From Kineosporia babensis (GTDB taxonomy: Bacteria > Actinomycetota > Actinomycetes > Actinomycetales > Kineosporiaceae), in contig NZ_JAJOMB010000012.1 of assembly GCF_021129305.1 (NCBI RefSeq), positions 62,001 through 126,000 of the forward strand: a stretch of DNA of 64,000 nucleotides, in the 5' to 3' direction. The notes beneath the pieces are model-generated. The model had not been told where the DNA came from. It ran no database searches and saw only the letters and a list, made by a program, of their open reading frames with translations. Positions 28,594 to 48,374 of this stretch are shown here, in pieces (position 1 is the first letter of the stretch; each line of letters begins with the position of its first letter). A program made the translations under genes and the position numbers.

Positions 28594-28972
28594 TGCGTCA
28601 CACCCCAGACAAACGACTTCCTAGCAGCCCTCAGAGGTCGGGCCCGGGCAAACCTTAAACAGGACTCAACAGCCCCAGAACACGCAGACCTGGGCCGATG
28701 CCGTACCCAGAGCCCGCGGTGCACACTCCCCGACAGCCGCCACCTAGGTCGCTCACAGGTTGATCGCGTGCTGCCGGAGAGAGCCTGCGAGGCAACGAGA
28801 ACCCGCATCCAACGCCCTCAGCCTTCTGTCGGCCGGGTCGTCGGCGCCCAGGTGACCTGCCCAGATGTACTTCCCAGAAAGAGTTCGTCCGGGCAATCCG
28901 GTCGGCCGTCCACATCCGCGACCTCGCGTGGCCAGGTCGGGGGGCATCGCCTCGATGCGGCAAGATGTCACG
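28594..28972. other. Intergenic region upstream of xthA
   Basis: About 380 bases between divergent genes. It must contain the host xthA promoter, which would now also serve the element-borne copy. I see no clear hairpin or small gene. Confidence 0.45.
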
Positions 28973-29692
28973 ATGAGGATCGCCACCGCCAACGTCAACG
29001 GAATCCGTGCCGCCGAACGCCGCGGTATGCCCGCCTGGCTGGCCGAACGGCAGCCCGACATCCTCTGCCTGCAGGAGATCCGGGCCGACGACCCCACCCT
29101 GATGAAGATCATGGGCGAGGGCTGGCACGGCGTGCACGAGGAGTCCGCCACCGCCAAGGGCCGCGCCGGCGTGGCCGTGCTGTCCCGCACCGAGCCCGCC
29201 GAGGTCCGCACCGGCCTGGGCTCCTTCCTGGGCGCAGGCCGCTGGGTCGAGGCTGACTTCACCCTGGCCGACGGCGGCCTGCTGACGGTGGTGTCGGTCT
29301 ACGTGCACACCGGCGAGGCCGAAACCCCCAAGCAGGACGAGAAGTACCGGTTCCTCGACGAGATCCGGGAGCGGATGAACAAGCTCGCCGCGGACGGCCG
29401 GCACCTGCTGGTCTGCGGCGACTTCAACATCTGCCACCGCGAGGCCGACCTGAAGAACTGGAAGGGCAACCTGAAGAAGTCCGGCTTCCTGCCCGCCGAG
29501 CGCGCCTGGATGGACTCGCTGTTCGACGAGGACGGCTTCGTGGACGTGCACCGCAAGCTGGCGGGGGAGGGGCCGGGGCCCTACACGTGGTTCTCCTGGA
29601 GGGGCAAGGCTTGGGATAGCGCAAGTCGTAAATCTACCCCGTGTATTAGTGCAGGTCAGAGCGTTACGAAGGGTGCTTACGCGTCGTGCTGA
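28973..29692 (+). pseudogene. xthA: 5' part of chromosomal exonuclease III gene, split by element
   Basis: Codons 1-214 (28,973-29,614) encode a typical XthA (RIATANVNGIRAAERRG, ILCLQEIRADDPTL, LLVCGDFNICHREADL, GPYTWFSWRGKAWD). The frame then enters element DNA and adds 25 unrelated residues, ending at 29,692. The product lacks the final catalytic Asp and the His of the SDHSP motif, so it should be inactive. The missing 48 codons lie at 48,228-48,374. Joining the two pieces at the shared GGA restores a 262-residue frame exactly. The fused frame's stop overlaps the start of the element's own xthA (GTGCTGA), so a ribosome ending here could restart on the intact copy. Confidence 0.92.
29595..29635 (+). 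other. attL junction
   Basis: Host sequence GGGGCAAGGCTTG meets the shared GGA (29,614-29,616) and then element sequence TAGCGCAAGTCGTAAA. The site was found by aligning the interrupted xthA frame with its 3' remainder. The element arm GTCGTAAA is a near mirror of TTAACGAC at the other end. Confidence 0.82.
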
Positions 29693-30495
29693 GGGTTGCT
29701 ACTGCCAACGTGAACGGTATCCGGGCTGCTGAGCGGCGGGGGATGCCTGCCTGGCTCGCTGAGCGTCAGCCGGACATCCTCTGCCTCCAAGAGATCCGCG
29801 CGGACGATGCGACGCTCATGAAGATCATGGGTGAGGGCTGGTACGGGGTGCATGAAGAGTCGGCCTCGGCCAAGGGGCGGGCCGGCGTTGCTGTGCTGTC
29901 TCGGACTGAGCCGGTGGCGGTGCGCTCTGGCTTGGGCTCGTTCCTCGGTGCTGGGCGCTGGGTTGAGGCTGACTTCGCTCTGACGCCTTCTGCTGAAGGA
30001 GAGCCTTCGCTCTTGACGGTGGTGTCGGTGTACATCCACACCGGTGAGGCTGACACACCGAAGCAGGATGAAAAGTACCGGTTCATGGATGAGATCCGGG
30101 AGCGGATGAACAAACTCGCTGCTGATGGTCGGCATTTGCTGGTGTGCGGTGACTTCAACATCTGCCATCGCGAGGTGGATCTGAAGAACTGGAAAGGCAA
30201 TCTGAAGAAGTCTGGGTTCTTGCCGCGGGAGCGAGCCTGGATGGATTCGTTGTTCCATGAGGACGGGTTTGTGGATGTCCATCGGAAGATGGCCGGCGAA
30301 GGGCCTGGGCCTTATACATGGTTTTCATGGAGAGGCCGCGCATGGGATACAGGAGCCGGTTGGAGAATTGATTATGCTATCGCAACCGACAGTCTTGCCG
30401 AAATGGTTGAATCTACTGAGGTTGATCTCGCTCCAACGTATGACCAACGTTGGAGTGATCATTCCCCTGTGATTTTGGATGTAGTGTTCAGTTAA
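29686..30495 (+). CDS. xthA: Element-borne complete exonuclease III
   Basis: A full-length 269-residue XthA: Glu near 36 (ILCLQEIRADDAT), CGDFNICHREVDL, and the C-terminal His in QRWSDHSPVILDV are all present. It should act as AP endonuclease and 3'-5' exonuclease in base excision repair. By eye it is about 90 percent identical in protein to the broken host copy, but the codons differ greatly, with many T- or A-ending codons and a marked GC drop in the last 150 bases. A GTG start at 29,686 overlaps the stop of the truncated host gene, with GAAGGG upstream. The GAC-codon region equivalent to the att site reads GCATGGGAT instead of GCTTGGGAC. It most likely replaces the gene destroyed by integration. 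Confidence 0.93.
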   Translation: MLRVATANVNGIRAAERRGMPAWLAERQPDILCLQEIRADDATLMKIMGEGWYGVHEESASAKGRAGVAVLSRTEPVAVRSGLGSFLGAGRWVEADFALTPSAEGEPSLLTVVSVYIHTGEADTPKQDEKYRFMDEIRERMNKLAADGRHLLVCGDFNICHREVDLKNWKGNLKKSGFLPRERAWMDSLFHEDGFVDVHRKMAGEGPGPYTWFSWRGRAWDTGAGWRIDYAIATDSLAEMVESTEVDLAPTYDQRWSDHSPVILDVVFS

Positions 30496-30585
30496 TTGGC
30501 CGAGCGCTTCTACGATCGGCTGCCAAGCCAGGATCGGCGGCTCCTAGTTGGGAAATGGGTTCTCCCGTGGTAACTGAATAACTTG

Positions 30586-31449
30586 TCAAGATTTTTCAAG
30601 TCGGCGCAAGAATCTGGAAAGAACGCTGTCCAACTCAATTGGATCGTGGACCGCTTCAGCCACGACTCGATCTACGAAGGCTACACCGGCCTCGTGTAGC
30701 AGATGTTCACGTGATGTGTCCAGAGCTCGGCGGGCATTGTGGTGAGGGCCGTCTACTTCCAACACGCCAGCTCGCCCTTTGTAGGTGACTAAAAAGTCCG
30801 GCTCCCATGTCCTCCCCAGCACTCGACCACCTGCGAGAGGGAAAACGGCGATCGTTTCTTGTTTGGGAAGGGCTTCCTGAAGCCTTTTCAAGGCGAGGTA
30901 CACTTTTTGTTCGCCTTCGTTAGTGAAGAACAGATAATCAGTCGACCATCGGGGCGGTCCTTGACGCAACTTTCGCCCCTGGTTGGTAGGCCGCTTTGGC
31001 GGCTCCAGTTCCCCAAGAAGTCGTGCACGCCAATCGGGACCAACTTCGGGCAGGATTTCACGGAGACCGACGTTGAAATCCCTGTACCTCAGGCGCTTGC
31101 TTACTTCGGCGCATGTATTGTGAAGTGCTTTAACCCATTCTCGGGGAATAGCTGACTGCTGCTCCGGCAAGACTTCGAGCCAAAGTTCGTACTCTTCGTA
31201 CTCATGGTCGTATTCAATCGCAAACGATTGAACCTCGAGAAAACGTAACGCTTTCTCTTTATCTCCTCGCTGTAGCAACAAGGTCAATGCGTGAGCCAAT
31301 ACAGCCTCTCCCATTGCCTCCATCCGTGAATCCCCTTGCAGTTTCGGATCTTCTAAGATTTCGCGGAACGTCAATGCACGTTTGGACTGCTCGTCACGAT
31401 CGCCTGACACTGCTGTTCGCTCCCATCGATCTCTACAGTCGGGTTGCAC
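30586..31449 (-). CDS. PD-(D/E)XK-like nuclease with helical N-terminus
   Basis: A 287-residue protein. Residues 1-165 are helical and unrecognised. The C-terminal 120 residues look like a restriction-endonuclease fold: NEGEQKVYLALKRLQEAL (helix with Glu), then EPDFLVTYKGRAGVLEVDG, which fits the Asp...Glu-x-Asp/Lys pattern, followed by RREHLL-like basic residues and VAFVDRVVAEAV. This resembles DUF559/DUF2726-type nucleases. The start is GTG at 31,449, with GTG at 31,410 as alternative; neither has a strong ribosome site. It converges with the element xthA and is divergent from the DUF4062 gene. A defence role is inference from fold and setting. Confidence 0.72.
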   Translation of the reverse strand: MQPDCRDRWERTAVSGDRDEQSKRALTFREILEDPKLQGDSRMEAMGEAVLAHALTLLLQRGDKEKALRFLEVQSFAIEYDHEYEEYELWLEVLPEQQSAIPREWVKALHNTCAEVSKRLRYRDFNVGLREILPEVGPDWRARLLGELEPPKRPTNQGRKLRQGPPRWSTDYLFFTNEGEQKVYLALKRLQEALPKQETIAVFPLAGGRVLGRTWEPDFLVTYKGRAGVLEVDGPHHNARRALDTSREHLLHEAGVAFVDRVVAEAVHDPIELDSVLSRFLRRLEKS

Positions 31450-31770
31450 ATCCTAGAGTCCGCCGACACTCACCGGAACAGTTCTCCAAGGCGGAGTGGA
31501 CCTAGCCAGGCATGCGGTCAAACTAAGAGTGACCGAAGGACGAGGTAAACAGCCCTTGGAGCGTCACTGATCTGCCGTTATGGACAGGATCCTGGGCGCG
31601 GCCTCGCCAAGGGCAAACAGGTGGGTCGTGTTGCTCCAGCCAGATAGGTCTTGGCGAGAGCTGTGGCATCGCACAGAGCGTTCTAAGTCCAACCCAGCTT
31701 GCCGACGCTAGTCGCGAACGCTGGCGAGTCAGCGTCTCGTCAACTCTCATGCTGAGGTACAGTCGGCCTT
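31450..31770. other. Divergent promoter region in the cargo block
   Basis: About 320 bases between the nuclease and DUF4062-TPR genes, transcribed away from each other. No convincing ORF. It should hold both promoters; I could not assign boxes with confidence. Confidence 0.4.
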
Positions 31771-33363
31771 GTGCCCATAGAGTTGTCATGCCGCGTGGTT
31801 TTTCTCGCGAGTCCGGGTGGCCTTGCGGATGAGCGGGAGGCATGTCGGCGTCTCATAACTGAGTACAACGAGCGGGACTCACTCCAAAGCAGGTCAAGTT
31901 TCTTCCTTCATGCTTGGGAAGACGCTCCAGGCGGAGTTGGACGACCCCAAGAACTTATCAATGCGAAGCTAGACGAGTGCGATTTTACCCTACTGTTGAT
32001 GGGGGATTGGTGGGGCAGTCCGCCAGATAATGAGGGCGCACATACGTCAGGCACTGAAGAAGAGTTTTATCGGTCCTTGGAATTACTCGCCAAGGAGGAT
32101 GCCCCGATGAGAGACATATTTGTCGCGTTCAAAGCGATTCCTCCTGCGCAACTTCGAGACCCGGGACCAAGCCTTCAGACGGTGCTGGCATTTCGCCAAA
32201 GACTAGAGGCGTCCAAGCAGATTATGTACGAAACGTTCGACTCTCTGGAGAATCTTGAGCACCGAGTCCGGCGAAGATTAGTCGAATGGGCAAAACCGCT
32301 TGAAACGAAAATTGCCAAGAAGGTGACTCTCCCCGGACCTGATACTGCAGGTTCTGGAACCGGAGCGAGTAAGGAGGATTACCTCAGATCTGCTCGCGAG
32401 GAAGCGAGAGCCAAACTACTGACGCAAGCTGACACGTCTTATGCCTTGGCAACTAGGGAAGGAGACCCGGATGCCCTGCTTGAGTACGCCAAATTCATGC
32501 GTCGCACTGGCCGGTTCGAACAGGCCCTGGACCTCAATCAGCAGGTGATAAGTAGTTCCACTACTGCGTCACTCCAAACACCCGCTGAGACTGCAGCGAG
32601 GGTCAGCGCCCTAGCGAATAACGGAGTGATAAGACGAAAGCAGGGAAAATTCGCAGACTCGCTCTTTGCCTTGACCGAGGCGGTTGCCACTTCCAAGCAG
32701 GGACATCTCGAAAAGAGTGACGAGTATTGCTATGCCCTGGACAATCTCGGCTATACGCTTCTTCAGCTAAACCGCCCAGATGAAGCGCTGCAAGCATTCC
32801 AGGAATCATACGAAGTGCGCGAAGCCCACGGCGACAGCGACAAGAAGGCCCAGTCTGCAGTAAATCTGGGCAGGCAGCTACTGATGCATTCCAAGTTCGC
32901 GGAAGCCTTGAGTCATTTCGAAGAATCGGACCAACTTTTGCTCAATAGTCAAGACCATCATCTTCGCGCAAACGCAAAGGCTGGTCTGGCCGAGAGTCTA
33001 ATAGAGCTAGGACGCGACGAAGAGGCAATGCCGGCAGTTCGCGAGGCGCTCGAACTGAATGAACGCCTTCAAAGTATCGACGGGCTCAGTATCGCGCATG
33101 GACTAATGGGTCGACTAGCTCTTAATGCTGAAGCATGGGATACAGCCGAGTTTCATCTGACACAAGCTTCTGATCTATCTGAAAGACTGGATAATCCACA
33201 TGGAAAAGGAGTTCTACTAGCATTCTTGGGAATACTGAAGCTGAAACAAGGAAAAACTGAGCAAGCTGCGACGGCTGCTCTAGCAGCCGAAGAGATACAC
33301 GCCAAGTTTCCCAATCAATCGCTCAGGCGGAAAATTGATAATTTAAATAGACTCTTTAGGTAA
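31771..33363 (+). CDS. DUF4062-like (TIR-related) domain fused to TPR repeats
   Basis: A 530-residue protein. Residues 1-150 have the DUF4062 layout: VVFLASPGGLADEREACRRLI, a central strand with DECDFTLLLMGDWWGSPP, and GTEEEFYRSLELL. DUF4062 is related to TIR/SEFIR-like folds. A linker of about 50 residues leads to a TPR array from about 205 to the end (repeats such as ALDNLGYTLLQLNRPDEALQAFQESYEV). There is no NTPase domain between sensor and effector, unlike STAND proteins. It starts GTG at 31,771. Such pairings occur in bacterial immune proteins, where TPRs sense and the TIR-like part acts. Its 3' end overlaps the opposing phosphoesterase gene by 8 bases. Confidence 0.8.
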   Translation: MPIELSCRVVFLASPGGLADEREACRRLITEYNERDSLQSRSSFFLHAWEDAPGGVGRPQELINAKLDECDFTLLLMGDWWGSPPDNEGAHTSGTEEEFYRSLELLAKEDAPMRDIFVAFKAIPPAQLRDPGPSLQTVLAFRQRLEASKQIMYETFDSLENLEHRVRRRLVEWAKPLETKIAKKVTLPGPDTAGSGTGASKEDYLRSAREEARAKLLTQADTSYALATREGDPDALLEYAKFMRRTGRFEQALDLNQQVISSSTTASLQTPAETAARVSALANNGVIRRKQGKFADSLFALTEAVATSKQGHLEKSDEYCYALDNLGYTLLQLNRPDEALQAFQESYEVREAHGDSDKKAQSAVNLGRQLLMHSKFAEALSHFEESDQLLLNSQDHHLRANAKAGLAESLIELGRDEEAMPAVREALELNERLQSIDGLSIAHGLMGRLALNAEAWDTAEFHLTQASDLSERLDNPHGKGVLLAFLGILKLKQGKTEQAATAALAAEEIHAKFPNQSLRRKIDNLNRLFR

Positions 33364-33955
33364 CTTGAAACCATTTTCGGCTTGGCCAGATGAAGCAGGT
33401 CAATGGGTATCCTGAGATAGAGCCGCACCCTGTATCAATGAGTGCATATTTATCTGTGATTAAAGGGACCCCCCTTGCCTGTACGGCATGGCCAAAGACT
33501 CCGTACAACGGCTTACCTTTGATCTCATTCAACATGGGGGCGTGTGCTGCTCGTAGATCAGCCTGCTGGTATACCTCTTCAAGGTCACGAAGAAACCGAA
33601 TGTGAGATGCGGGCATTCGGTCTGAGAGCGATTCGGAACTGGCCCTGCGTGGGTAGGCGCTTAGAGTCGCTGCCCCGCCAATTCGAATAAACCCGGCAGA
33701 GTTGTTTTCGTCAATAGCGCGGAGAAGCGCTTCTTCGTGGTGACCACGCAAGAAGTGAGTGTCTGGGAGATTGGCCTTCAGATCTATGAGAAAATCCAGG
33801 ACCTGGCGGGATTGATCACCCCGATTTATGTAGTCTCCAAGGAACACAAGCCTTTCGGCCTGGGTACTGGCTAGTGAAACTATTTTCACTAGCGGATCTA
33901 GTTGGCCATGGACGTCGCCGACAAAGGCAGTGACCATTCCATTTGCGGCCTTCAT
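33356..33955 (-). CDS. PPP-type (calcineurin-like) metallophosphoesterase
   Basis: A 199-residue enzyme with the two-metal motifs in order: AFVGDVHGQLD, VFLGDYINRGDQS, LRGHHEEALL (His replacing Asn of the usual GNHE) and GVFGHAVQ. This is the serine/threonine phosphatase or ApaH-like branch. Substrates in the family include phosphoproteins and dinucleoside polyphosphates. Its ATG overlaps the stop of the nucleotidyltransferase gene (ATGA), so the two are translated together. A pair able to attach and remove a nucleotide-type mark is an attractive reading, but this is inference. Confidence 0.85.
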   Translation of the reverse strand: MKAANGMVTAFVGDVHGQLDPLVKIVSLASTQAERLVFLGDYINRGDQSRQVLDFLIDLKANLPDTHFLRGHHEEALLRAIDENNSAGFIRIGGAATLSAYPRRASSESLSDRMPASHIRFLRDLEEVYQQADLRAAHAPMLNEIKGKPLYGVFGHAVQARGVPLITDKYALIDTGCGSISGYPLTCFIWPSRKWFQVT

Positions 33956-34782
33956 AGCACAACCTTATCGAGCGCATCGTAGTCAATCTCGTCGTCGAAT
34001 CCGTGAAGCGCGAATGCGGCGAAGTTTGAGAGGTCCCGATCGCTCGACCAGGTGCCCTCTGCGAGTTCCTCCAAGCTTCCAAAAGGATTGGATTTAAGGC
34101 CGCCGCAAAGCTCGTGCAAGCGCGAGCGCAGTTCAAGGAAAGTCTCCTCGGATGCGGGTAGCTGAACTTTTTTATGTGACGAGAGTAGCGGGATCAGATC
34201 CATGTCTCTGTTTCGGGTAGCGATCTCTTTTACCGAGAAACAGGGAGCGCCGTCTTGGAGTGCCTTGGTGTAAAGGGCAGATCGAAGTAGGTACCGGGCT
34301 ACCTTCGTTAGGCCGACGATGTGCTCGACAAGATCACGCCGCGAGGCATCTATTACCGGCGTTAGCCCTTTAATGCGGTATGCGACTTTGGTCGGGTCGG
34401 GCGAGTCGATTGAAGCGAGCATCTGGGCAAGATCGTTGTTTCTGTCTAACAGTATCTTGCCGTCGCGCTTCAAGTGGTAGCCAAAAAGCGTTCCAGAAGT
34501 TGCCCGCAACTGCGATTCGCTGTAGGAGGAGAAGCTGATGTTTTCGTGAATTGGATGTTTCCCTGGGGAAATATAGTTCAGGGCCAGTACATCCAGGTCG
34601 GAGTGCTCATCAACATCACCCCTGGCCCAACTTCCATATGCCAATAGGCACTGAAATTGCCCCGGAAGGCTCGCGCGAAGATCCGCTTGAACACTTCTAG
34701 GCACCTGTAGGGAGGTTAGCGACCTGCTGATTTCGCGCCAGTTGGTGGCGGTACGGTCACGGTCAACTGTCATGGCCACCAT
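33952..34782 (-). CDS. Pol-beta-type nucleotidyltransferase with helical C-terminus
   Basis: A 276-residue protein. The nucleotidyltransferase motif GSWARGDVDEHSDLDVL (GS then DxD) is near residue 52. The following 200 residues are mostly helical, with a block RRDLVEHIVGLTKVARYLLRSALY that looks HEPN- or KNTase-like. Family members transfer AMP or other nucleotides to proteins, tRNA or antibiotics. The ATG at 34,782 is followed by another at 34,773. It is the middle gene of a minus-strand operon, 75 bases after the Abi_C-like gene and overlapping the phosphoesterase gene by 4 bases. Confidence 0.82.
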   Translation of the reverse strand: MVAMTVDRDRTATNWREISRSLTSLQVPRSVQADLRASLPGQFQCLLAYGSWARGDVDEHSDLDVLALNYISPGKHPIHENISFSSYSESQLRATSGTLFGYHLKRDGKILLDRNNDLAQMLASIDSPDPTKVAYRIKGLTPVIDASRRDLVEHIVGLTKVARYLLRSALYTKALQDGAPCFSVKEIATRNRDMDLIPLLSSHKKVQLPASEETFLELRSRLHELCGGLKSNPFGSLEELAEGTWSSDRDLSNFAAFALHGFDDEIDYDALDKVVL

Positions 34783-34857
34783 CCGGACTCGAAAGGAGAT
34801 CGATCTACCGCTGGATGGTCTCCCTGGTCAGCGCACATTGCCCAGAATGATAGACCA

Positions 34858-35781
34858 TCAATTGGAGGACACCTCTTCGTTCCTCCACGGCGCATCAGGG
34901 TCTCCTAGGGTCTCGAGCATCAAGTTGCACCAGGTGGCTGCAGCGCCGGCTGCGAGGCGTGCATGCCTTGGTCGAATCCACCCCGGAACCGATTCCCGTC
35001 CATGACCGACACCGACTTGATTGCGAAGCTCCGTTACGCCCTGAGTTAGACGAGTAAGCGATCCAAGTATTGTTTTGAGGGCCTTCGCCTCTTCGGTCGC
35101 TCCATCCTTGACGCCTGCTGCATGCAACTTTAAGCATTGTTGCGCTTGCGTAACCAGAGCAGGTAAATCGCTTTTTGAATTGAACTCGATTCTCCGCTCG
35201 CGTAGGACAAGTTTAGCGGTGCTTTCGACTAGGTCCTTAGCAACACTGACGGCAAGCCGTGGATCAGAATCCACGCTAGCTGAGAGCCTTCGAAGGTTCT
35301 CAGTAATTGCTGCTGAGTCGGCTAGGGCGTTCATCGCGGGGGCAGCCATCTCGCCAGCTGGAATTTGATCCTGTAACCGATGGAAGTGTGCAAGGGTGGG
35401 TTCGAAAACGGCAGTCACCATGCTGCGCCTAGCGGCCCATGATCCTTGTCCGCCATGAGAAAGCCAATAGGTCCTGAACGTCGTGAAGTCCTGCCAAGGA
35501 CAAACAAATGAGATACCGAAACGCTTACAGATGGACTTGAGCGCGCGTAAGGCTAAGCGCGCCTCTTGATCGGTGATGCGTTCTCCGCCGCTCGTGCCGT
35601 ACGTGTTGAACTCACCGTGCAGCAAAAGAGATAGAGATTCGCCAGCATCAAGATCGGAAACGCCCGGCACCGGTGCTTGCCGCAACTCATCCAGCAGGTC
35701 GGTTTTCAATTGGAGGCGTGGCAAACCCCAAGGGTCTGAAACCGCCGACGATGGATGAAAGAAATCCTCTGGATCTAGCAA
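34858..35781 (-). CDS. Abi_C / HEPN-like abortive-infection protein
   Basis: A 307-residue protein starting with TTG at 35,781, with AAAGGGATGA eight bases upstream. The N-terminal 150 residues are not recognised. The C-terminal 130 residues match the Abi_C pattern: RLAVSVAKDLVESTAKLVLRE, then LTQGVTELRNQVGVGHGRES and ARLAAGAAATWCNLMLETL. The RN...GHG element resembles the conserved Arg-to-His motif of HEPN ribonucleases. Abi_C proteins occur in abortive phage-infection loci. It is first gene of the operon with the nucleotidyltransferase and phosphoesterase; HEPN plus nucleotidyltransferase is a known toxin-antitoxin logic, so the trio is suggestive. Confidence 0.8.
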   Translation of the reverse strand: MLDPEDFFHPSSAVSDPWGLPRLQLKTDLLDELRQAPVPGVSDLDAGESLSLLLHGEFNTYGTSGGERITDQEARLALRALKSICKRFGISFVCPWQDFTTFRTYWLSHGGQGSWAARRSMVTAVFEPTLAHFHRLQDQIPAGEMAAPAMNALADSAAITENLRRLSASVDSDPRLAVSVAKDLVESTAKLVLRERRIEFNSKSDLPALVTQAQQCLKLHAAGVKDGATEEAKALKTILGSLTRLTQGVTELRNQVGVGHGRESVPGWIRPRHARLAAGAAATWCNLMLETLGDPDAPWRNEEVSSN

Positions 35782-35920
35782 CCAAAATCATCCCTTTCGG
35801 ATTCGAGGACGTTCCGCGCCTGAGGCCGAATATAGCAAGAGTTGAACGTATGGAAGCTCGTTTGGGTTGACCCGGGAGGCCCCTTGCCATACATGTGCAC
35901 CCGAGGGCGTTTTCTGGCTG

Positions 35921-36457
35921 CTAGGGAGTGATTTTGCGTAGCTCGTCGGAGACTTGCTTCCAAGGAAACCGGACGGGGGCCGACTCGCTACCCCCGTCTG
36001 CAACTGTGCGATCGGTCAGAACTAGCGTGACGCCGTCTTCGCGCAGATGCGCAAGACTTCGCCTATAGGCTCCGTGCGAAGCGAGAGCGCGATTCATCCA
36101 AGGAGCAACGATGACAGGCTTGTCGGCACCGATCGCTTCGCAAACGATGCCAACGGCAAGAGTGTCCGATATTCCCTGTGCGATTTTATTTATGGTGTTG
36201 AAACTGGCAGGCGCAACCACGATCGCGTCTGCCATTGGCAAAACGTCGGGGTCGTCGGGATGTTTGTAGTGAGACCTGACGGGATGCCCGGTCAAGTCGA
36301 ACAGGTGGGTTGAATCGACGAAGCGTGAACCCATTGGAGTTGTGACTGCACAAAGGTCCCAACCATCGGCCTTCGCGCTTTTCACGAACTCATACGACTC
36401 ATCTGCGTTGCTAACTCCGCAGATGATCAAGTACAGAACCCTTTTGGCGCCGCTCAC
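35921..36457 (-). CDS. Flavoprotein (HFCD/PPC-decarboxylase fold)
   Basis: A 178-residue protein starting with GTG at 36,457, where AGGAG precedes; an open frame extends to 36,583 but would run over the divergent promoter. The sequence begins RVLYLIICGVSNADESYEFV and carries ADAIVVAPASFNTINKIAQG, typical of HFCD flavoproteins, and DKPVIVAPWMNRALA. The family includes phosphopantothenoylcysteine decarboxylase and lantibiotic decarboxylases. In actinomycete mobile elements such a flavoprotein is often divergent from an XRE regulator as here. Its role is unknown. Confidence 0.83.
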   Translation of the reverse strand: MSGAKRVLYLIICGVSNADESYEFVKSAKADGWDLCAVTTPMGSRFVDSTHLFDLTGHPVRSHYKHPDDPDVLPMADAIVVAPASFNTINKIAQGISDTLAVGIVCEAIGADKPVIVAPWMNRALASHGAYRRSLAHLREDGVTLVLTDRTVADGGSESAPVRFPWKQVSDELRKITP

Positions 36458-36544
36458 CTGGCAACTCCTGTCGATAGCGCTCGGGCAATGTCGATCCGTC
36501 GTTAGAATGTCACCCTCCGGTGCATCGATAGCGAGGGGGGTCGC

Positions 36545-37726
36545 ATGGGTGACGTCGAGAACACCGGTGCGCGCATCCGCCAATACCGCAGGGCACGCGG
36601 GCTGAGCTTGGATCAGGCGGCCGGGCTGGCTGGCATCAGCAAGGGGTACCTATCCAGGCTGGAGCGCGGGGAACGCTCGGTGGACTCGCGGGCTCGGTTG
36701 ACGTCGATCGCTCAGGCGCTGGAAGTCTCGGTGGCTGATCTGACCGGTCAGCCGTACGCCCCGCGCGAGCAGAAACATGCGGACGCTCATCGTGGGGTGC
36801 AGGCGACGCGGTTGGCGCTGCTCGATCCAGAAGGGCCGGGGCGGTCTGAGGAAGAAGTTGCCGCCATCATCGATGGCCTGGACCAGATCATGGCTCGGTG
36901 CGACCTCGTGGATGAGGCACGCATCGTGCCCAATGTCCTGCGTTGGACTCAGCAGCTTGCCGATGAGACGGGTTCGCCTGAGGCTCATCGGCGCGTGGCG
37001 ATAGCGGCGTACACGGCGATCTTCTACGCGCGGAACATGGGGGAGTTCGACCTCGCCTGGATGGCCGCGGAGAGGCTGCGGTCTGCGGCTGAGGCGTCGA
37101 ATGATCCGGCGACGCTGGGGCTTGCGGCGTACGGGCAGGCTCACGCGCTGACGCCTTCGGGAGCGTTGAGGCGGGCGGCTTCTGTTGCTCAGTCTGGTTT
37201 CGATGCAAGTGATCTGGGTGAGAGCGAGAGCCTTGCTGCTCGGGGTTCTTGCCTCTTGGTGGGCGCGGCGACCAATGCGAGCTTGGGCAACATCGATACG
37301 GCTCGGGCTCAGTTGGACGACGCGATGAGCCTGGCGGCCCGGGTTGAGGAGCCGACGATGGTCGCGCGGCACACGTCATTCAGTTCGTGGAACGTGATCA
37401 TGCATCGCGTGGCTGTCGAGGTGGAGTCGGGCAACCCGGCGGCGGCGCTGGAGACTGCGCGTCCGTTGGCATCTCGGCCGGTGAAGCAGCGCGAGCGGAT
37501 GTCGTACCTCTGGGTCGACATGGGACGCGCGTTCTCGCGGATGGATCGGCATCGCGACGCGATCGATGCGTTCCGGCGGGCTGAGCGCTCTGCGCCCCTA
37601 CGGGTTCGGCTGAGCCCGGTGGTCCGCGATGGCGTGCGGGATTTGCTCAACCAGAGTCACCGCAGGGTGGCCGGCGCTGAACTGCGTGGGCTGGCCGAGC
37701 GTTGCGGAGTCCTCGGCGAGGTATAA
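36545..37726 (+). CDS. XRE-family regulator with TPR-like C-terminus
   Basis: A 393-residue protein. The helix-turn-helix is at residues 8-65 (IRQYRRARGLSLDQAAGLAGISKGYLSRLERGER, split here only by family helix boundaries). The rest is helical and TPR-like, similar in plan to SMR/NPRR-type sensors. The ATG at 36,545 has GAGGGGGG upstream. The gene is divergent from the flavoprotein and is followed after 3 bases by a perfect palindrome that could be its operator. It probably controls element maintenance or transfer genes at 37.8-39.8 kb. Confidence 0.88.
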   Translation: MGDVENTGARIRQYRRARGLSLDQAAGLAGISKGYLSRLERGERSVDSRARLTSIAQALEVSVADLTGQPYAPREQKHADAHRGVQATRLALLDPEGPGRSEEEVAAIIDGLDQIMARCDLVDEARIVPNVLRWTQQLADETGSPEAHRRVAIAAYTAIFYARNMGEFDLAWMAAERLRSAAEASNDPATLGLAAYGQAHALTPSGALRRAASVAQSGFDASDLGESESLAARGSCLLVGAATNASLGNIDTARAQLDDAMSLAARVEEPTMVARHTSFSSWNVIMHRVAVEVESGNPAAALETARPLASRPVKQRERMSYLWVDMGRAFSRMDRHRDAIDAFRRAERSAPLRVRLSPVVRDGVRDLLNQSHRRVAGAELRGLAERCGVLGEV

Positions 37727-37729
37727 GGG

Positions 37730-37748
37730 GGTTGCCAATCTGGCAACC
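37730..37748. promoter_or_regulatory. Palindromic operator-like site
   Basis: GGTTGCCA-ATC-TGGCAACC is a perfect 8-base inverted repeat with a 3-base centre, just after the XRE gene and 34 bases before the next frame. A half-like copy, GTTTGCCAATTC, occurs at 39,534 upstream of the gene at 39,567. Confidence 0.65.
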
Positions 37749-37781
37749 TTTCGACCCTTGCGCGACTGCACCCTGTAGGGC

Positions 37782-38877: not shown

Positions 38878-39059
38878 GATGAAGCTGAGGCCGGGCCACC
38901 CCGTTTCCTATGCGGGGAGAAGGGTGGCCCGGCTGGAACGTGTCACGTCCCGGTGTCGGATGGTACCGGGGCGTAGTCGGCGTGCGTGATAAATCGGACG
39001 CGCGTGTCTGGCTCGCCGGTGCCTTGAGCAGAAATGTTCGGGGTAGGTGGGAGCGAGAG

Positions 39060-39494: not shown

Positions 39495-39566
39495 ATCTCT
39501 TCCCTCCGGTCCTGGGCCGGTTGGCCCGTCCACGTTTGCCAATTCACTGAGACGGGGGAACTTTCG

Positions 39567-39761: not shown

Positions 39762-39773
39762 CTGCGCTCGTAG

Positions 39774-40328: not shown

Positions 40329-41174
40329 TCAGCTGGGACGGCTGATCAGAGTGGCTCGATCTGCTGGAATGCGGGTCTCTTCGACTAGCAGCGGCCGATC
40401 GTCTTGCCCGTGCGTGATCCGAACGTGGATGATCAGCGGGATTCCAGGGCTGATGTCGAGGGTGGCTGCATCGTCAGGACGGGGCATCTCGGCGCGGGTG
40501 CGGTCGGTCCAGGTGAGCGGATGACCGGCTTCGCTGAAGACCTGGTAGAGATCCGCCGGCAACCGGAACGGGTTGTCGTCCAGGTGGAGATCGTCGACGA
40601 CGGCGAACGGGAGCCAGACGCGGTGCATGACCTGCGTGCCGCCAACATGCAGGAGCTGGCGCTCCAGGACGAAAACCGGTTCTGAGGGCCGAATTGCAAG
40701 GGCCATGGCGTAAGATCCGGCCTCGGTGCGGTAGCGGGATGGCGTCTCGACCTCGGCCCAGCCTTGTGCATCCCACGTCTGATAGCGCGGCCCGTCAGAG
40801 GCGTCGGACAGGATGATGGACGGGTCGAACTCGAGGACGAGTCCCGCTGCGAAGGTGAAGGGTTGGCGTACGCGAGAGGCTCGGCCGTGTTCAGTGGTGA
40901 TGAGGCCGGCGGCGCGTAGGGCTGCGATGGCGTGGCGGACGGTGATCCGGGAAACGCCGAACTCGGCGATCATCGCGGTCTCGCTGGGGATGGCCTTGCC
41001 GGGGGGTAGGTCGCCGTTCTCGATGCGCTCTCGCAGGGTGAGGGCGATCTGTTCGTAGCGGGGCAGGCGCGCCCTGAGGGCTCGAGCCGTGCGGTCGGGC
41101 GCGCTGTCAGCGTGAAACGTCGGTGACGAGGTGCCGACGGTGGCGTCGTTCTCGTGCGCGGGCGGCTTGCCCAT
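40329..41174 (-). CDS. GntR/HutC-type repressor with UTRA domain
   Basis: A 281-residue regulator. After a 40-residue tail comes the winged helix: LPRYEQIALTLRERIENG, then IPSETAMIAEFGVSRITVRH and AAGLITTEHGRASRVRQP. The C-terminal UTRA domain includes VFVLERQLLHVGGTQVMHRVWLPF (in two stretches) and IIHVRITHGQDDRPLLVEET. In pSAM2 and related elements a GntR-type repressor, KorSA, controls replication and transfer. This gene is divergent from the SCO3933-tra-rep operon with palindromes between, so it is probably the equivalent control gene. Confidence 0.9.
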   Translation of the reverse strand: MGKPPAHENDATVGTSSPTFHADSAPDRTARALRARLPRYEQIALTLRERIENGDLPPGKAIPSETAMIAEFGVSRITVRHAIAALRAAGLITTEHGRASRVRQPFTFAAGLVLEFDPSIILSDASDGPRYQTWDAQGWAEVETPSRYRTEAGSYAMALAIRPSEPVFVLERQLLHVGGTQVMHRVWLPFAVVDDLHLDDNPFRLPADLYQVFSEAGHPLTWTDRTRAEMPRPDDAATLDISPGIPLIIHVRITHGQDDRPLLVEETRIPADRATLISRPS

Positions 41175-41392: not shown

Positions 41393-41785
41393 ATGAGGAC
41401 GATTCCTGTGAACGTCTCGGCGTTCGAGGCGTGGTTGTGCGTGATGCTGCCCGAACCGAGGGTGGCGAACCCCGATACCGGGGAGCTGCGTAAGGACCGG
41501 GAGACCGGTCAGACGATGTACTCGGTCGGGGTCTGCGCGATCCAGGGCCGCAACTCCTCGGTGATTCAAGTGACGGTCGTCGGGGAACCGCAGGGCCTGA
41601 TCTTGGGTGCTCCGGTGCGGGTTTCGGATCTGGAGGCGACGCCGTGGGACCGGGATGGTCGCTCGGGTGTGGCCTGGCGGGCCTCGGCTCTGGCGCCGAT
41701 GCAGGCTCCGGCGGGTGGTCGGCCGAGTAGCTCGAGTGCTGCATCGGCAGGTCCGGGTGCGACGAGCCGGGGTGAGGCCCGATGA
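41393..41785 (+). CDS. SCO3933-family regulatory protein (Pra-like)
   Basis: A 130-residue protein. The start at ATG 41,393 (RTIPVNVSAFEAWLC) was preferred over 41,366 because family members begin close to this motif. Further family-like text: DTGELRKDRETGQTMYSVGV, IQVTVVGEPQGLILGAPVRV and DLEATPWDRDGRSGVAWRA, then a Ser/Ala-rich tail. Proteins of this group sit upstream of the FtsK-like gene in actinomycete elements and have been linked to activation of replication and excision. It overlaps the next gene in ATGA. Confidence 0.8.
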   Translation: MRTIPVNVSAFEAWLCVMLPEPRVANPDTGELRKDRETGQTMYSVGVCAIQGRNSSVIQVTVVGEPQGLILGAPVRVSDLEATPWDRDGRSGVAWRASALAPMQAPAGGRPSSSSAASAGPGATSRGEAR

Positions 41786-43299
41786 GCTCCCTCCTGCTGA
41801 AAGTCGTTGCCCTGGTTGCAATGGTGTGGGTGCTGCGCCGGATCGCGGACGGCTTCACAGCGATCTTCGGTGCAGCTGCGCCAGTGGCTCTGCTGGCTCT
41901 GATCGTGCTCGGGATGCTGGTTTGGCGGATGGCGGGCCGGTTGCGGGAGGCACGGCCGTGGTCGTGGTGGCCGGTGTTCGGGGCGCCGGTTGCGGTGTGG
42001 TGGATGCTGCGTACCTGGTCAGCAGCCTGCGAGGAACTCGGACTGGCGGTCCCGGCGGCTCGATCGGGACGGTTCGGGCTGCTGGACGGTCCCGCTGGTG
42101 GGTTGATCGTGCGGGGAACACCTCTGAAAGTTGTTTCTCCGCGCCGGATCGGGTTGAAGATCCGGGCCAGTGGTCTGGAGGTTCGGGTGCGGCTGGCGCC
42201 GGGGCAGACTCCGGCCCAGTTCGAGCGGGCGGCCGAAGGTTTGGCGCATGCCTGGCGGGTTCACCGGGTCCGGGTGGAGGTGCCTCGTCCGGGGTTCGGG
42301 ACCCTGGTCGGGCTGGGTTTCGATCCGCTCCGGCACCCCAAGCCCCGGCAAGCTCAGGCGGTCGCTGCTGGTCCGGTTGATGTTCCGGCCAGTGATCAGG
42401 ATGGCCAGGAACGAGCCGAGTACCCCACTGATCTGGTTGTTCCTGATCAGATCGAGGTGACGCCGGCGGATCTGTCGGTGAGTGTCGGTATCCGGGAAGA
42501 CAGCCATCCCTGGCAACTGGATCTGACTCGCCGCCCTCATTACCTGGTGTGTGGGGCCACCCGCTCGGGCAAATCGACCCTGACGGTCCGGATGTTGTCC
42601 GAACTCGCGCGGCGCCCGGTCGGTCTGGTCGGTATCGACGCGAAGAACGGGATGGAATTGTCGCCGTTCGGTCCGCGCCTGTCAGCGTTGGCGGTTAACC
42701 GGGCTGAGGCTGTCGCGGCGATCGAGGGTCTGCTCGGGGTGCTCGAACTGCGGGCGATGACGTGTCAGGAACACGGCGCCCGCTCGATCTGGGAACTGCC
42801 CGTGCCGGTGCGCCCATGGCCGATCGTCGTCGTGGTCGATGAAGTCGCCAAACTGATGCTGTCGGTCGATCGGGCCGGTAAGGAGGAGACCACCCGGTGC
42901 ATCCAGGGCCTGGTGCGCCTGGGCCAACTCGGCGCGGCCCTCGGCATCCACCTGTGGATCTCCGGGCAACGGTTCGGCTCGGATCTCGGACCGGGGGCGA
43001 CGCTGCTGCGGGCGCAGCTGGCCGGGCGGGTCTGTCACCGGGTCGCCGACGCCGAAACCGCCGGCATGACCCTGGCCGGCCTTCCCGCTGAGTCGGTGGT
43101 GGAGGCACAGAAGATCCCGGCTGATCTGGCGGGGGTCGCGGTGTCCGGGGACGACTCCGGGGCCTGGCACCTGGTCCGCAGCGACCCAATGGACATCACC
43201 GAAGCTGCCGCGCTGGCCAGCCAGTACGCGAGTCTGCGGCTGGACCTGCCCGAAGTCGATGCCGCGGTACAGCGGGTGCGGTTGGGAGGTGCCTGGTAG
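41782..43299 (+). CDS. FtsK/SpoIIIE-type DNA translocase (AICE transfer protein)
   Basis: A 505-residue protein. Two or three membrane helices lie in the first 80 residues (VALLALIVLGMLVWRM, WWPVFGAPVAVWWML). The ATPase domain has Walker A GATRSGKST near 258-266 and Walker B PIVVVVDEVAKL near 347. The end of the ATPase region is ALGIHLWISGQRFGSD. In AICEs and Streptomyces plasmids such a protein (TraB/TraSA-like) moves double-stranded DNA between mycelial cells. It overlaps the SCO3933-family gene by 4 bases and the next small gene by 1 base, so it is in the core transfer-replication operon. Confidence 0.92.
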   Translation: MSSLLLKVVALVAMVWVLRRIADGFTAIFGAAAPVALLALIVLGMLVWRMAGRLREARPWSWWPVFGAPVAVWWMLRTWSAACEELGLAVPAARSGRFGLLDGPAGGLIVRGTPLKVVSPRRIGLKIRASGLEVRVRLAPGQTPAQFERAAEGLAHAWRVHRVRVEVPRPGFGTLVGLGFDPLRHPKPRQAQAVAAGPVDVPASDQDGQERAEYPTDLVVPDQIEVTPADLSVSVGIREDSHPWQLDLTRRPHYLVCGATRSGKSTLTVRMLSELARRPVGLVGIDAKNGMELSPFGPRLSALAVNRAEAVAAIEGLLGVLELRAMTCQEHGARSIWELPVPVRPWPIVVVVDEVAKLMLSVDRAGKEETTRCIQGLVRLGQLGAALGIHLWISGQRFGSDLGPGATLLRAQLAGRVCHRVADAETAGMTLAGLPAESVVEAQKIPADLAGVAVSGDDSGAWHLVRSDPMDITEAAALASQYASLRLDLPEVDAAVQRVRLGGAW

Positions 43300-43707: not shown

Positions 43708-43857
43708 GTGACCATTCACCGCGTTCCCGGCCGGCCCGTCCGCAGCGCTCACTCCGCCTCGGACGGGCCGGGCTCCCCGGCACCACACCAGCAATGGCGA
43801 ACATTAGGTAGGTGGTTGGATGGCGAAACAGGCTCCACGGAAACAGAAAAGCGCTGA
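43708..43857 (+). CDS. Small protein upstream of rep
   Basis: A 49-residue frame starting GTG at 43,708 with AGGAGG six bases upstream, one of the best ribosome sites in the element. Sequence TIHRVPGRPVRSAHSAS then QQWRTLGRWLDGETGS. It overlaps the first 38 bases of rep in another frame, so it may serve mainly to couple translation into rep. Function unknown. Confidence 0.55.
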   Translation: MTIHRVPGRPVRSAHSASDGPGSPAPHQQWRTLGRWLDGETGSTETEKR

Positions 43858-45283
43858 CAAGCACGCTGATCGGCAACTGACGCTTGGCCTGGGCCTGGCC
43901 CCCGAGTTGGCCGAGTTGATCGAGCAAGTCAACCGTCCCGATCACCGGGACTGGCTCAAGCAAGTCCAGCGCATCGGCGGCTGCTCCCACCCCCTGCACA
44001 TGCGCGGCTCCACCCGCATCATCGACAAAGCCACCGGCCGCGTCGATCACGAGTTCAGCAGCCGCAATGCCCCGGACGGCATCATCCTGATCCGCTGCCG
44101 CAACCGCCGCGCAGCCGTCTGCCCGTCCTGCGCCCGGATCTACCAAGGCGACCTGTTCCAACTGGTCAAGGCTGGACTGGCCGGCGGCAAAGGAGTCCCC
44201 GAAACCGTCGCCGGGCACCCCCGGGTGTTCATCACCCTGACCGCCCCATCCTTCGGCGCCGTTCACTCCTCCCGACCGGCCGGCCGCACGAAGGTCACAC
44301 GCGGCGATCACCGCGACGCACGCGGAATCTGCCGTCCTCGGCGCGGTCCGGACTGCGAACACGGGCGCCCCGTCGCGTGCTTCGCCCGGCACGCCGAAGC
44401 TGATCCGCAAGTCGGAACCCCGCTGTGCAGGGACTGCTACGACTACGAAGCTGCGGTGATCTGGCAAGCCAACCTCGGGCGCCTGTGGGAACGCTTCTGC
44501 ATCTACCTACCCCGTCACCTCGCCCGGCACGCGGGCGTTCCGATCACCCACCTGCGGCAAGTACTGCGACCTTCGTACGTGAAGGTGATCGAGTTCCAAC
44601 GGCGCGGCCTGGTCCACGTCCACGCCGTCATCCGCCTGGACGGACGCACCGACAACCCCACCGACCTGGCACCCGCACCCGCCTGGGCCACTGCAGCCGC
44701 GCTGAAAGAAGCCGTGCTGTCCGCTGCCAGTGCTGTCCTCATTACCCAGGAGGCCAGCGCCGGTCAGTCCTGGGCGCTGCGGTGGGGGCAGCAAGTTGAC
44801 GTCCGTGACATCGGCGAAAACCTCGAACGCGGCGAAAGCATCGCCAAAGTAGCTGCCTACGTCGCCAAATACGCATCCAAGGGTAGCGAAGAGACCGGCT
44901 GGAACCCCCAGAACTGGGACCAGACACCCCGCGGACGACACGCCGCCACGATGGTGCACACTGCCTGGGCCCTGGCCGAACGGCCCGAGCTGGAGCACCT
45001 GAAACTCCGCAAGTGGGGCAAGGATCTCGGCTACCGGGGCCATGTCTCATCCAAATCCCGCCGCTACTCCACCACCCTCGGCGAACTACGGGCCGCACGA
45101 AGCGCCTACCGCCGGCAGGACTCCGCCGATGCTGAGCAGCAACCCGCCCCCGATGTCGTAGTCCGGTCGTCCTGGAAGCTCGTTGGCCACGGATACAACC
45201 AGGGGCAGGCTCGGCTCGCGGCTGACGTGGCGCGTGACCTGAAGAACCGACGTGACGCAGCGCGAGACGAGCGAAACCTATGA
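43820..45283 (+). CDS. Rolling-circle replication initiator (RepSA-like, HUH)
   Basis: A 487-residue protein. A cysteine cluster (CRNRRAAVCPSCARIYQGD) near residue 95 and another (CRDCYDYEAAVIW) near 205 suggest zinc binding. The HUH metal motif is in RGLVHVHAVIRLDG near 265, and the candidate nicking tyrosine and lysine are in KVAAYVAKYASKGSEE near 345. This order matches the replication initiators of pSAM2-type elements. It makes a single-strand nick to start rolling-circle copying of the excised circle. It lies at the end of the transfer operon and overlaps a 55-residue gene (ATGA). Confidence 0.88.
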   Translation: MAKQAPRKQKSADKHADRQLTLGLGLAPELAELIEQVNRPDHRDWLKQVQRIGGCSHPLHMRGSTRIIDKATGRVDHEFSSRNAPDGIILIRCRNRRAAVCPSCARIYQGDLFQLVKAGLAGGKGVPETVAGHPRVFITLTAPSFGAVHSSRPAGRTKVTRGDHRDARGICRPRRGPDCEHGRPVACFARHAEADPQVGTPLCRDCYDYEAAVIWQANLGRLWERFCIYLPRHLARHAGVPITHLRQVLRPSYVKVIEFQRRGLVHVHAVIRLDGRTDNPTDLAPAPAWATAAALKEAVLSAASAVLITQEASAGQSWALRWGQQVDVRDIGENLERGESIAKVAAYVAKYASKGSEETGWNPQNWDQTPRGRHAATMVHTAWALAERPELEHLKLRKWGKDLGYRGHVSSKSRRYSTTLGELRAARSAYRRQDSADAEQQPAPDVVVRSSWKLVGHGYNQGQARLAADVARDLKNRRDAARDERNL

Positions 45284-46506: not shown

Positions 46507-48171
46507 TCAGGCTCTCCTCGATCGCTGCCATTCGCGCGTATAGGCGGCGGTGCAGAGCTTGCATCTGGGCTTCATCTTCCGGGCCGGTCCATAGATCGTG
46601 AACTCACTCCGTGGCTTCCACTCCTGGCACTTGGTGCACGTCCGTCCCTGGCTGAAGTCCAGGTCCGGTGGTTCCGCGCGCGGAATCTTCTTCTCGCTCT
46701 CCCATACGGCCCGAGCGCTCATGCGGGGACGGGTACGGAACGGGTAGACGTAGATCCCTTCCAGAACTTGCTCCAAGAGAACGCTGGCCGTGGAAGCATC
46801 TGCGGCCTCCCAGTTCTGTAGGAGCTGCAGAAAGCCGTCTGAAGGTGTTTGGATGCGATCGCCTTGGCGTTTCAAGCTTGCGAGGACAATTTTCAGCCGT
46901 TCAATCTCCTTCTTAATCAGCCGCATCTCGTCCGCCACATCGGCAGCCTCGAACGCTCCCGTGGATACGGCTCGGACCAGGTTCTCGCGCCGGCGTTCTT
47001 CGGTGAGCAGTTGGCTTTGCACGGCATCGCGGTCGGTGTTGGCGTCCTGGCGCTTCATCTGCTCGGCGACCAAGGAATCGAAAGACTCGCCGTATTCGCC
47101 AGCCAGCGACCGAAGCCAGTCCTTGGTGAACTCGGTCGCCTCAGAGTTGCTCACACTGACGTGCACCGGGCACGGCGCCCCGTCCTTCGTGAGCTGGGAG
47201 CAACAAACCCACCGCGATCTCTCAGGCCGATAGAGCATTCGCTTCCCGCAACCTGCGCAACGCAGATGCCCGCTGAGGTGCTGCCGCGGATTACGCGAAC
47301 GCTTCGGCTTGAGCGCCTGGACCCGGCGCCGCTCCCGGTAGGAGAGCCAAAGATCTTCGGAGATGATCGGGTCCCAGCTTCCGGGCAGGAACACGGGCCG
47401 CTCGGTAGTACCGATCCCCAACTCCTCCATTCGATCCTCGGAGAAGAAGGTTTCTGGCTTGTTGAGCACGATCAGGCCTGCGGCAAAGCCGCTATCGAGG
47501 TAGCCGCGTAGCGCGCTCTCAGACATCGGATTGCCCAAGAGGCTGCGCACATCGCGGTCACGAAGATGAAGCACGAGGGCATGCATCGACTTGCCGTCAC
47601 GGTACATCTCATAGCACTCACGGAAGATCGGTCCGGTGACAGGATCGATGGTGTAGCGCTTGGCGGGCTTGTCGTACACATAGCCCAACCTCGGGCCACC
47701 GTGAGACGGCAGCCCCTTGGCGATCATCGCCCGGCGCGCGTCGCGCCACGATTCGCCGATCTGGTCAGACTGGAACTCGGCGATCGCGAGCATCTGGGTG
47801 ACGCTGAAGCGGCCGGCCGGGGTGCTGGCGTCGATGGGCTCGGTAGCGGATTCGAGGCGGCCACCCACCTGCTTCAGCTCCGCAATGCAGCGCAGCGACT
47901 CGACCAGATTCCGGCCCCAACGCGACCAGCGCCAGACGACAACCGTGTTCGCCTCGCCGTCGCGAACGCGGTCGATCAGTGGCTGAATCTTGCGCTTCGT
48001 GAACGTCCGCCCGGAGAGATCGAGGTCCATCACCGGCTCCCCAATGACCTCGTACCCCTCGCGTCGGCAGTGCGAAAGGCATTGCTCGATCTGAACTTCC
48101 GGCGAGATCGACTCTTCCTTGTACGTTGACTGCCGGACGTAGATCAGAGCCTTACGTGGTGCCCGAACCAT
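46507..48171 (-). CDS. Large serine integrase
   Basis: A 554-residue recombinase. The catalytic serine is in IYVRQSTYKEESISPEVQ (Ser near 15), with the resolvase core continuing through VVWRWSRWGRNLVESL and QMLAIAEFQSDQIGES. The recombinase domain (GGPRLGYVYD) follows, then a zinc-binding domain with CAGCGKRMLYR and WVCCSQ, a coiled coil, and an extra C-terminal CxxC pair (CTKCQEWKPRSEF and KPRCKLC). It should recombine the circular element's attP with attB inside xthA. It lies 56 bases from attR with a perfect inverted repeat between its start and the junction. Confidence 0.95.
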   Translation of the reverse strand: MVRAPRKALIYVRQSTYKEESISPEVQIEQCLSHCRREGYEVIGEPVMDLDLSGRTFTKRKIQPLIDRVRDGEANTVVVWRWSRWGRNLVESLRCIAELKQVGGRLESATEPIDASTPAGRFSVTQMLAIAEFQSDQIGESWRDARRAMIAKGLPSHGGPRLGYVYDKPAKRYTIDPVTGPIFRECYEMYRDGKSMHALVLHLRDRDVRSLLGNPMSESALRGYLDSGFAAGLIVLNKPETFFSEDRMEELGIGTTERPVFLPGSWDPIISEDLWLSYRERRRVQALKPKRSRNPRQHLSGHLRCAGCGKRMLYRPERSRWVCCSQLTKDGAPCPVHVSVSNSEATEFTKDWLRSLAGEYGESFDSLVAEQMKRQDANTDRDAVQSQLLTEERRRENLVRAVSTGAFEAADVADEMRLIKKEIERLKIVLASLKRQGDRIQTPSDGFLQLLQNWEAADASTASVLLEQVLEGIYVYPFRTRPRMSARAVWESEKKIPRAEPPDLDFSQGRTCTKCQEWKPRSEFTIYGPARKMKPRCKLCTAAYTREWQRSRRA

Positions 48172-48207: not shown

Positions 48208-48250
48208 TAGGTTAACGACGGCCCTTGGACACCGGAGCGGGCTGGCGCAT
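48205..48250 (+). other. attR junction
   Basis: Element sequence GTTAACGACGGCCCTT meets the shared GGA (48,227-48,229) and then host xthA sequence CACCGGAGCGGGCTGG. With the left junction this reconstructs an attP with TTAACGAC and GTCGTAAA arms around GGA, and an attB reading CTTGGGACACC inside codons 213-216 of xthA. Confidence 0.82.
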
Positions 48251-48374
48251 CGATTACGCCATCGCCAACCCTGGCCTGGCCGCTCTCGCCACTACCGCCG
48301 AGGTCGACCTCGCGCCGACCTACGCCGAGCGCTGGAGCGACCATTCTCCGGTCGTCGTGGACCTGGATCTTTAG
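48227..48374 (+). pseudogene. xthA: 3' remainder of chromosomal xthA
   Basis: The last 48 codons of the host exonuclease III from the Asp codon at 48,228: DTGAGWRIDYAIANPGLAAL to ERWSDHSPVVVDLDL and stop. It contains the catalytic Asp and His of the C-terminal half. There is no start codon or ribosome site, so it is not expressed as a protein. It keeps the host codon style (C/G-ending), unlike the element's copy. Confidence 0.93.

Follow-up and report, generated by a model that had tools for sequence, protein, structure and literature searches.

Insertion into a conserved gene normally carries a cost that limits the sites open to a mobile element. The locus described here raises the question of how such a cost may be lowered, as an insertion has split the DNA-repair gene xthA of a Kineosporia species and a complete second xthA begins just inside the insert. 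The locus lies in a 64-kb stretch of DNA (the window) from a 9.4-Mb genome (G000), and six species genomes of the genus were compared. Copies of the gene are labelled h (truncated host xthA), e (element xthA) or i (intact xthA), followed by the genome number. We consider it likely that a serine integrase has carried an integrative element into xthA at codon 214/215, and that the left end of this element is a complete replacement xthA.

Architecture of the interrupted xthA locus

The native codons of the host gene stop at the GGA core of attL, and the 3' remainder stands behind an identical core at attR (Table 1), in agreement with the split at codon 214/215 reported by the first-pass annotation. 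The element between them spans 29,614–48,229 (18.6 kb). The host part lost to the insertion is the last ~50 codons of xthA, including the WRID and WSDH motifs, and we take the WRID and SDH residues to have a catalytic role. In all three species found to carry such an element (3/3, that of the window included), a full-length xthA ORF results when the flanks are joined, and excision of the element would be expected to restore host xthA. The same annotation had proposed an alignment with the empty locus of related strains, but no clean empty site, free of any insertion trace, was found among the six genomes of the genus.

Table 1. Positions of host, attachment-site and element features in the window.
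Feature	Position	Strand	Remarks
Host xthA 5' part	28973..29616	+	Native codons 1–214/215; truncated before the WRID and WSDH motifs of the C terminus
attL core GGA (crossover region), P' arm after it	29614..29616	+	Core and arm the same in three genomes
Read-through of host frame into element	29617..29692	+	24 codons past codon 215, ending at a TGA that overlaps the next GTG
Complete element-borne xthA	29686..30495	+	269 aa, GTG start; exodeoxyribonuclease III / AP endonuclease family
attB-equivalent window within element xthA, recoded	30316..30372	+	Codon comparison with host copies
Variable cargo	30586..36583		6 ORFs: unnamed ORF, DUF4062-TPR protein, metallophosphatase, nucleotidyltransferase-like, Abi_C protein, flavoprotein
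HTH-TPR regulator	36545..37726	+	94% identical in G002, without match in G004
GntR/UTRA regulator	40329..41174	-	69–74% identical in the sister elements
FtsK/TraB-type DNA translocase	41782..43299	+	Domain match
RepSA-type replication initiator	43820..45283	+	Domain match
Large serine integrase	46507..48171	-	Resolvase and Recombinase domains; PHROG integrase
attR core GGA	48227..48229	+	Preceded by P arm at 48,210–48,228
Displaced 3' part of host xthA	48229..48374	+	Intact reading frame once joined to 5' part

Beyond the attL core, the host frame continues into the element and ends at a TGA (29,690–29,692), which overlaps the GTG of the complete xthA so that the two spell GTGCTGA. An intact xthA 70 bp inside attL, with its GTG overlapping the stop of the truncated gene, had been noticed in the first pass and is confirmed. 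A search of the six Kineosporia genomes found the trio of truncated xthA, full xthA and 3' remainder in three of them (G000, G002, and G004), with the full gene 60 bases on by match coordinates and the 3' remainder ~18–23 kb away. The corresponding elements are ~18.6, 19.2, and 23.0 kb long, and chance or misassembly can be ruled out because the same arrangement is present in 3/6 genomes. The 24-codon read-through to the overlapping TGA is found in 3/3 elements, and the interval is free of insertions and deletions. A read-through free of stops would probably not be unusual on chance alone, and a constraint on attP may be what has kept it.

By its predicted gene content the insert is an actinomycete integrative and conjugative element (AICE), carrying a replication protein (RepSA), an FtsK/SpoIIIE-type transfer protein, and an integrase with att sites. 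The replication protein matches PF20199 (E 3e-145), with an NCBIfam RepSA score of 389.8 bits that is under the cut-off of 700, and the translocase matches PF01580 (E 8e-17), with an NCBIfam TraB score of 42.5 bits that is far under the cut-off of 800. The integrase is over the cut-off for PF00239 and PF07508, and its score for the zinc-ribbon model (PF13408, 24.2 bits) is just under the cut-off of 25.3. The GntR/UTRA regulator is presumably KorSA-like. The cargo at 30,586–36,583 has a defence flavour (DUF4062-TPR, AbiJ-like Abi_C, nucleotidyltransferase-like, and metallophosphatase proteins), these genes having no match in the sister elements. A YoeB/YefM-type toxin–antitoxin pair is located just downstream of attR (48,423–49,000, minus strand).

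In a survey of AICEs, 19 of 144 had serine recombinases, and Faln2929 of Frankia disrupts a putative endonuclease gene (PMC3218068). The serine-recombinase group shares with the present element RepSA, an FtsK/TraB translocase, a serine integrase, and insertion in a protein-coding gene, but in the account consulted no AICE is described as supplying a complete substitute for the gene that it breaks (PMC3218068).

Codon divergence around the attachment site

In their 5' portions the host and element xthA share 88–89% of residues, 79% of nucleotides, and 51% of third codon positions, and GC3 upstream of attB is 0.96 in the host copy and 0.72 in the element copy of the window. The first-pass annotation had described a very high protein similarity with quite different codon choice, which these values bear out, and had called the element gene recoded. 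The latter term is right, but it should not be taken as a uniform change, since the divergence peaks at attB.

The peak was measured in an attB window of 57 nt around the crossover, with six hosts set against three elements (18 pairs). Host–element identity in this window averages 0.71, compared with 0.87 between hosts and 0.90 between elements, and 18/19 encoded residues are the same (17/19 for one element). Upstream of attB, host–element DNA identity is 0.79–0.82 for the three truncated hosts, 0.79–0.85 for iG001 and iG005, and 0.87–0.88 for iG003. None of 124 overlapping gap-free upstream windows shows an excess as large as that of the attB window. Synonymous codon differences fixed between the six hosts and the three elements account for 6/14 codons within 10 codons of the crossover, 3/145 upstream, and 1/13 downstream, an enrichment at the crossover with a Fisher P of 1e-5. 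Over the same distance (≤10 codons), the element xthA of G000 departs from the spelling of hG000 at 13 of 16 comparable codons, and from that of iG001 at all 16. The attB excess has P < 0.05 in 17 of the 18 pairs, which are not independent, and P = 0.08 in hG000–eG002. The GC3 of the element copies is 0.32–0.47 in the attB window, compared with 0.72–0.77 upstream.

Of the comparable codons pooled over host–element pairs, 232/279 (0.83) differ at attB, as against 0.39 of those upstream and 0.68 of those in the tail. The attB codons also differ more within the groups, at 0.44 vs 0.30 upstream for hosts and 0.35 vs 0.28 for elements, and since the hosts vary more at attB among themselves, part of the peak is a local rate. 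The tail value of 0.68 compares with 0.51 and 0.69 within groups. Once the within-group rate is subtracted, 0.39 remains at attB and about zero in the tail, and none of 185 upstream windows exceeds 0.21. Host–element synonymous divergence that peaks at attB, above the local rate, is the new observation made here.

The proposed reason for this peak lies in the position of the replacement gene. If a functional attB lay 0.7 kb from attP in direct orientation, the integrase could delete most of the element's own xthA, and the attB stretch may have been recoded because such a site would allow this self-deletion (~0.7 kb). The element copy may then be safe from its own integrase. As in Cleave-and-Rescue, the target stretch of the rescue copy is recoded, the resistance to the integrase being a prediction from sequence. 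The key prediction is an inert site in the element xthA, which re-spelling to host codons would activate. The lower DNA identity would also slow homologous recombination between the two xthA copies. Judging from the codon pattern, we lean towards selection rather than neutral change as the source of the attB recoding.

The main competing explanation, which we regard as possible though rather doubtful, is a neutral mosaic in which gene conversion keeps the first ~200 codons alike and halts near the crossover, leaving the last stretch with an older divergence. Host and element xthA copies do appear to have recombined, as this explanation asks. In iG005, element-type sites at codons 77–119 lie between host-type stretches (switch test P = 0.0017, which overstates the result because 5/7 sites sit in two neighbouring codons), and codons 30–60 of hG004 are 92–95% identical to the element copies; the switch test is not significant for iG003 (P = 0.14) and hG002 (P = 0.20). 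The tail beyond attB is diverged from the hosts as well, and a neutral mosaic could therefore yield part of the attB peak, to which the above-upstream variation of the attB window within the hosts would also contribute. On the other hand, the element copies agree in the attB window (0.90) as they do upstream (~0.90), unlike their tails past WRID, which are 55–62% identical in DNA to one another vs 90% upstream; this places the attB window outside the swapped tail. The large excess over the within-group rate at attB, with next to none in the tail and lower values in all upstream windows, also argues against a neutral origin. In addition, the upstream divergence trend is not a smooth rise, and in hG000 and iG001, which are among the hosts least like the elements, the attB window still exceeds all 189 upstream windows. 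No close donor of the element tails was found, and the tail and the adjacent cargo may have been exchanged together.

The putative replacement gene as part of the element

The element xthA scores 203 bits with TIGR00633 (cut-off 99) and 196.5 bits with TIGR00195 (cut-off 182.6), two other exoIII models being under cut-off. It aligns over its full length with solved relatives including 2jc5 and has the C-terminal WRID and SDH motifs. The dN/dS among the three element copies is 0.024–0.050 (216 codons), compared with 0.06–0.17 among host copies, and the element gene is under purifying selection. The motifs, models, and dN/dS together predict a functional-looking protein. In the xthA tree the three element copies fall among the Kineosporia sequences as a single clade (bootstrap 100) whose sister is iG003 (100), the deeper nodes being weak (40–95).

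No terminator-like site was found in 28,500–31,500, including the interval between the two xthA starts. A scan for sigma-70-type promoters, which is weak in such DNA, gave none for either xthA copy with 0.8 expected in shuffles, and no structure emerged when the junction RNA was folded (z +1.6). By eye, a strong ribosome-binding site is absent before the element xthA, and translational coupling would therefore be needed. The arrangement is most simply interpreted as transcription by the host, with translation coupled at GTGCTGA. The replacement xthA would then be expressed from the host transcript, probably by termination–reinitiation, giving the insertion a low cost, and the host probably keeps a working xthA.

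The first-pass annotation had gone further in stating that the insertion pays for its own damage. This view is partly supported by the complete, selected xthA placed for the host transcript in three diverged elements, but the need for payment may be lessened by a diverged xthA relative that all six genus genomes have elsewhere, 27–30% identical. In the window's genome, where a family-model scan was made, this relative (G000:C1:517,671–518,447, L004; 29% identical) is an exodeoxyribonuclease III by family model. Its presence in 6/6 genomes suggests that loss of xthA may be tolerable and that the benefit of rescue may be partial.

The same diverged relative lends some support to a second alternative, that the carried xthA, as a captured repair gene, is cargo like any other or stands beside attP by chance, and plays no part in mending the damage; exoIII genes are also present in 331 plasmid and 14 phage records. 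We find this unlikely, as the insertion breaks the very gene that the element carries, the two copies point the same way, and the carried one begins 70 bp from attL with a start–stop overlap and is kept in 3/3 elements, with most of the adjacent cargo unshared. This contrast comes from a comparison of 18 window ORFs with the sister elements of G002 and G004, genes unique to the sisters lying outside it. Six ORFs are strongly common to all three elements, namely xthA (90% identity), one small ORF (87–88%), the GntR regulator (69–74%), TraB (84–85%), RepSA (78–80%), and the integrase (80–87%). Four small ORFs are 70–90% identical in G002 and ~40% in G004, while the HTH-TPR and flavoprotein ORFs match G002 only (flavoprotein 71%). 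The other six have no match in either sister, and five of them lie at 30.6–35.8 kb, right after xthA. Since xthA is common to the three elements and the adjacent cargo mostly is not, xthA is part of the element core. The integrase genes differ by a dS of 0.91–0.96 between elements, which indicates that the elements are not recent copies of one another.

Among 13 genomes of the family, a close integrase is present in the same three only, at 87% (G004) and 80% (G002) identity to that of the window. The first-pass annotation had proposed to look for xthA beside attL in other carriers of the integrase, and a full xthA occupies the same overlap at the same codon in 3/3 genomes. Two xthA genes in relatives without the element, which it had named as evidence to the contrary, were not found: none of the three integrase-free congeners has two full xthA genes at the locus. 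Among 396 genomes of the order and 394 of the class, both samples of larger groups, only the three Kineosporia genomes have an integrase of at least 80% identity, the remaining matches being ≤42% over part or ≤35% over most of the length. At 16 integrase loci examined, no convincing xthA match lies within ~1.5 kb (best E 0.13). A scan of viral_contigs gave no integrase relative, and the 450 plasmid records matched are all below 60% identity. Three Parafrankia/Frankia loci (L035–L037) have one xthA each in the stretch examined, and nothing relevant was seen with the plasmid-borne exoIII of Tsukamurella. In 35 genomes of another family, no truncated-plus-full xthA pair is present among the matches listed. 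In one of these 35 genomes, xthA occurs as two overlapping pieces in different frames (G647:C155:2,072–2,853).

Outside Kineosporia, 9–10 kb stretches from five other genomes of Kineosporiaceae were compared (G011 and G012 were outside the comparison). Four of the five have one xthA and no tail fragment, the contig of G008 reaching only ~1.6 kb downstream. In the fifth, G010, a broken second xthA fragment lies downstream of an intact xthA (L122 4,733–5,013); it is not an att scar because it starts at residue ~149 rather than at the crossover. Tandem duplication of the host xthA followed by decay, without insertion, might appeal to this fragment, but is highly improbable and was rejected, since there is an 18.6-kb insert with an integrase and att cores and arms, attB is reconstructed in three genomes, and the attB and attP reconstruction refutes it.

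Known systems and older traces at the site

Our judgement is evenly divided on the full reading of this locus as a natural 'disrupt and rescue' system, in which the integrase would target xthA, a core rescue copy would be positioned for co-expression, its attB would have been recoded by selection, and the host allele would be replaced over time, leaving scars. A close natural comparison is with prophage e14 in icd of E. coli, where the inserted element also supplies gene-preserving sequence and a displaced duplicate 3' fragment is left; as described there, e14 supplies the 3' end only, fused in frame (PMC6379469). At xthA, by contrast, the fusion stops at the TGA after 24 foreign codons, and the broken gene is accompanied by a whole gene that has a start of its own and is recoded at attB. 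In Streptococcus pyogenes, SpyCI at mutL is likewise a mobile element at a DNA-repair gene, and one decayed SpyCI rescues mutL with a promoter, but the insertion silences repair genes and a gene copy does not figure in the account consulted here (PMC3430984). The serine integrases of streptococcal IMEs also insert within genes, the relevant text treating such insertion as gene disruption (PMC5357655).

Cleave-and-Rescue gene drives are selfish, break a gene, and carry a tightly linked recoded copy resistant to their own enzyme, but they are engineered, nuclease-based, and used in animals (PMC7951863). The present system is natural and integrase-based, any drive by it being hypothetical. Among the open-access papers listed, none describes, by title or abstract, a natural integrative element that carries a complete replacement gene recoded at att, and this absence of earlier reports is weak evidence for its novelty. 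If the reading is true, a full, integrase-proof replacement would be a way round the limit that insertion cost sets on element sites, and a natural counterpart of the engineered rescue drives. Such an element also points to a way in which core host genes could be replaced by mobile DNA.

Recombination between the two xthA copies still seems to occur, and it may let host lineages keep an element-type xthA. The genomes without a close integrase (G001, G003, and G005, the last with only a 27% relative on another contig) each have one intact xthA and, 0.7–1.9 kb downstream, a 3' tail of xthA that starts at the crossover; G005 has two such tails. A P-like arm precedes the tail with 2 mismatches in G001 and with 3 and 5 in G005, and none is found at ≤5 mismatches in G003; such an arm is weak evidence alone, as 0.4–0.6 chance matches per locus are expected at 5 mismatches. 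The P' arm is absent beside the scars, with one 4-mismatch match ~5.7 kb off in L115. The case for these putative scars is that their xthA tails begin at the crossover and, in G001 and G005, directly follow the P arm. The presence of the scars in integrase-free genomes suggests that insertion at this site is old in the genus.

Simple crossing-over between the two copies does not fully account for the scars, as it predicts an element-type attB window and the intact genes of G001, G003, and G005 all have host-type windows. The scar tail of G001 matches the tail of its intact gene at 114/116 positions. The dS of the G003 xthA is 0.73–0.94 to the hosts of G000, G001, G002, and G004, 0.54 to that of G005, and 0.52–0.60 to the element copies, and the amidohydrolase next to it has a dS of 0.39–0.64. 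This suggests that the intact xthA of G003 may be a captured element gene, although donor and recipient could be reversed. The VLRV start of iG003 is found in an outgroup too, and other outgroups have VLRI.

Small gene modules lie between the intact xthA and the tail scars (L113 5,455–7,282; L114 6,140–7,150; L115 6,284–8,444) and resemble cis-mobilisable remnants. In G001 the scar is preceded by an HTH gene and the one after it, and genes similar to these by eye follow the scar in G003. A YoeB/YefM-type pair is also found in G005 (L115 6,523–7,087, minus strand), where it lies between the intact xthA and an att scar.
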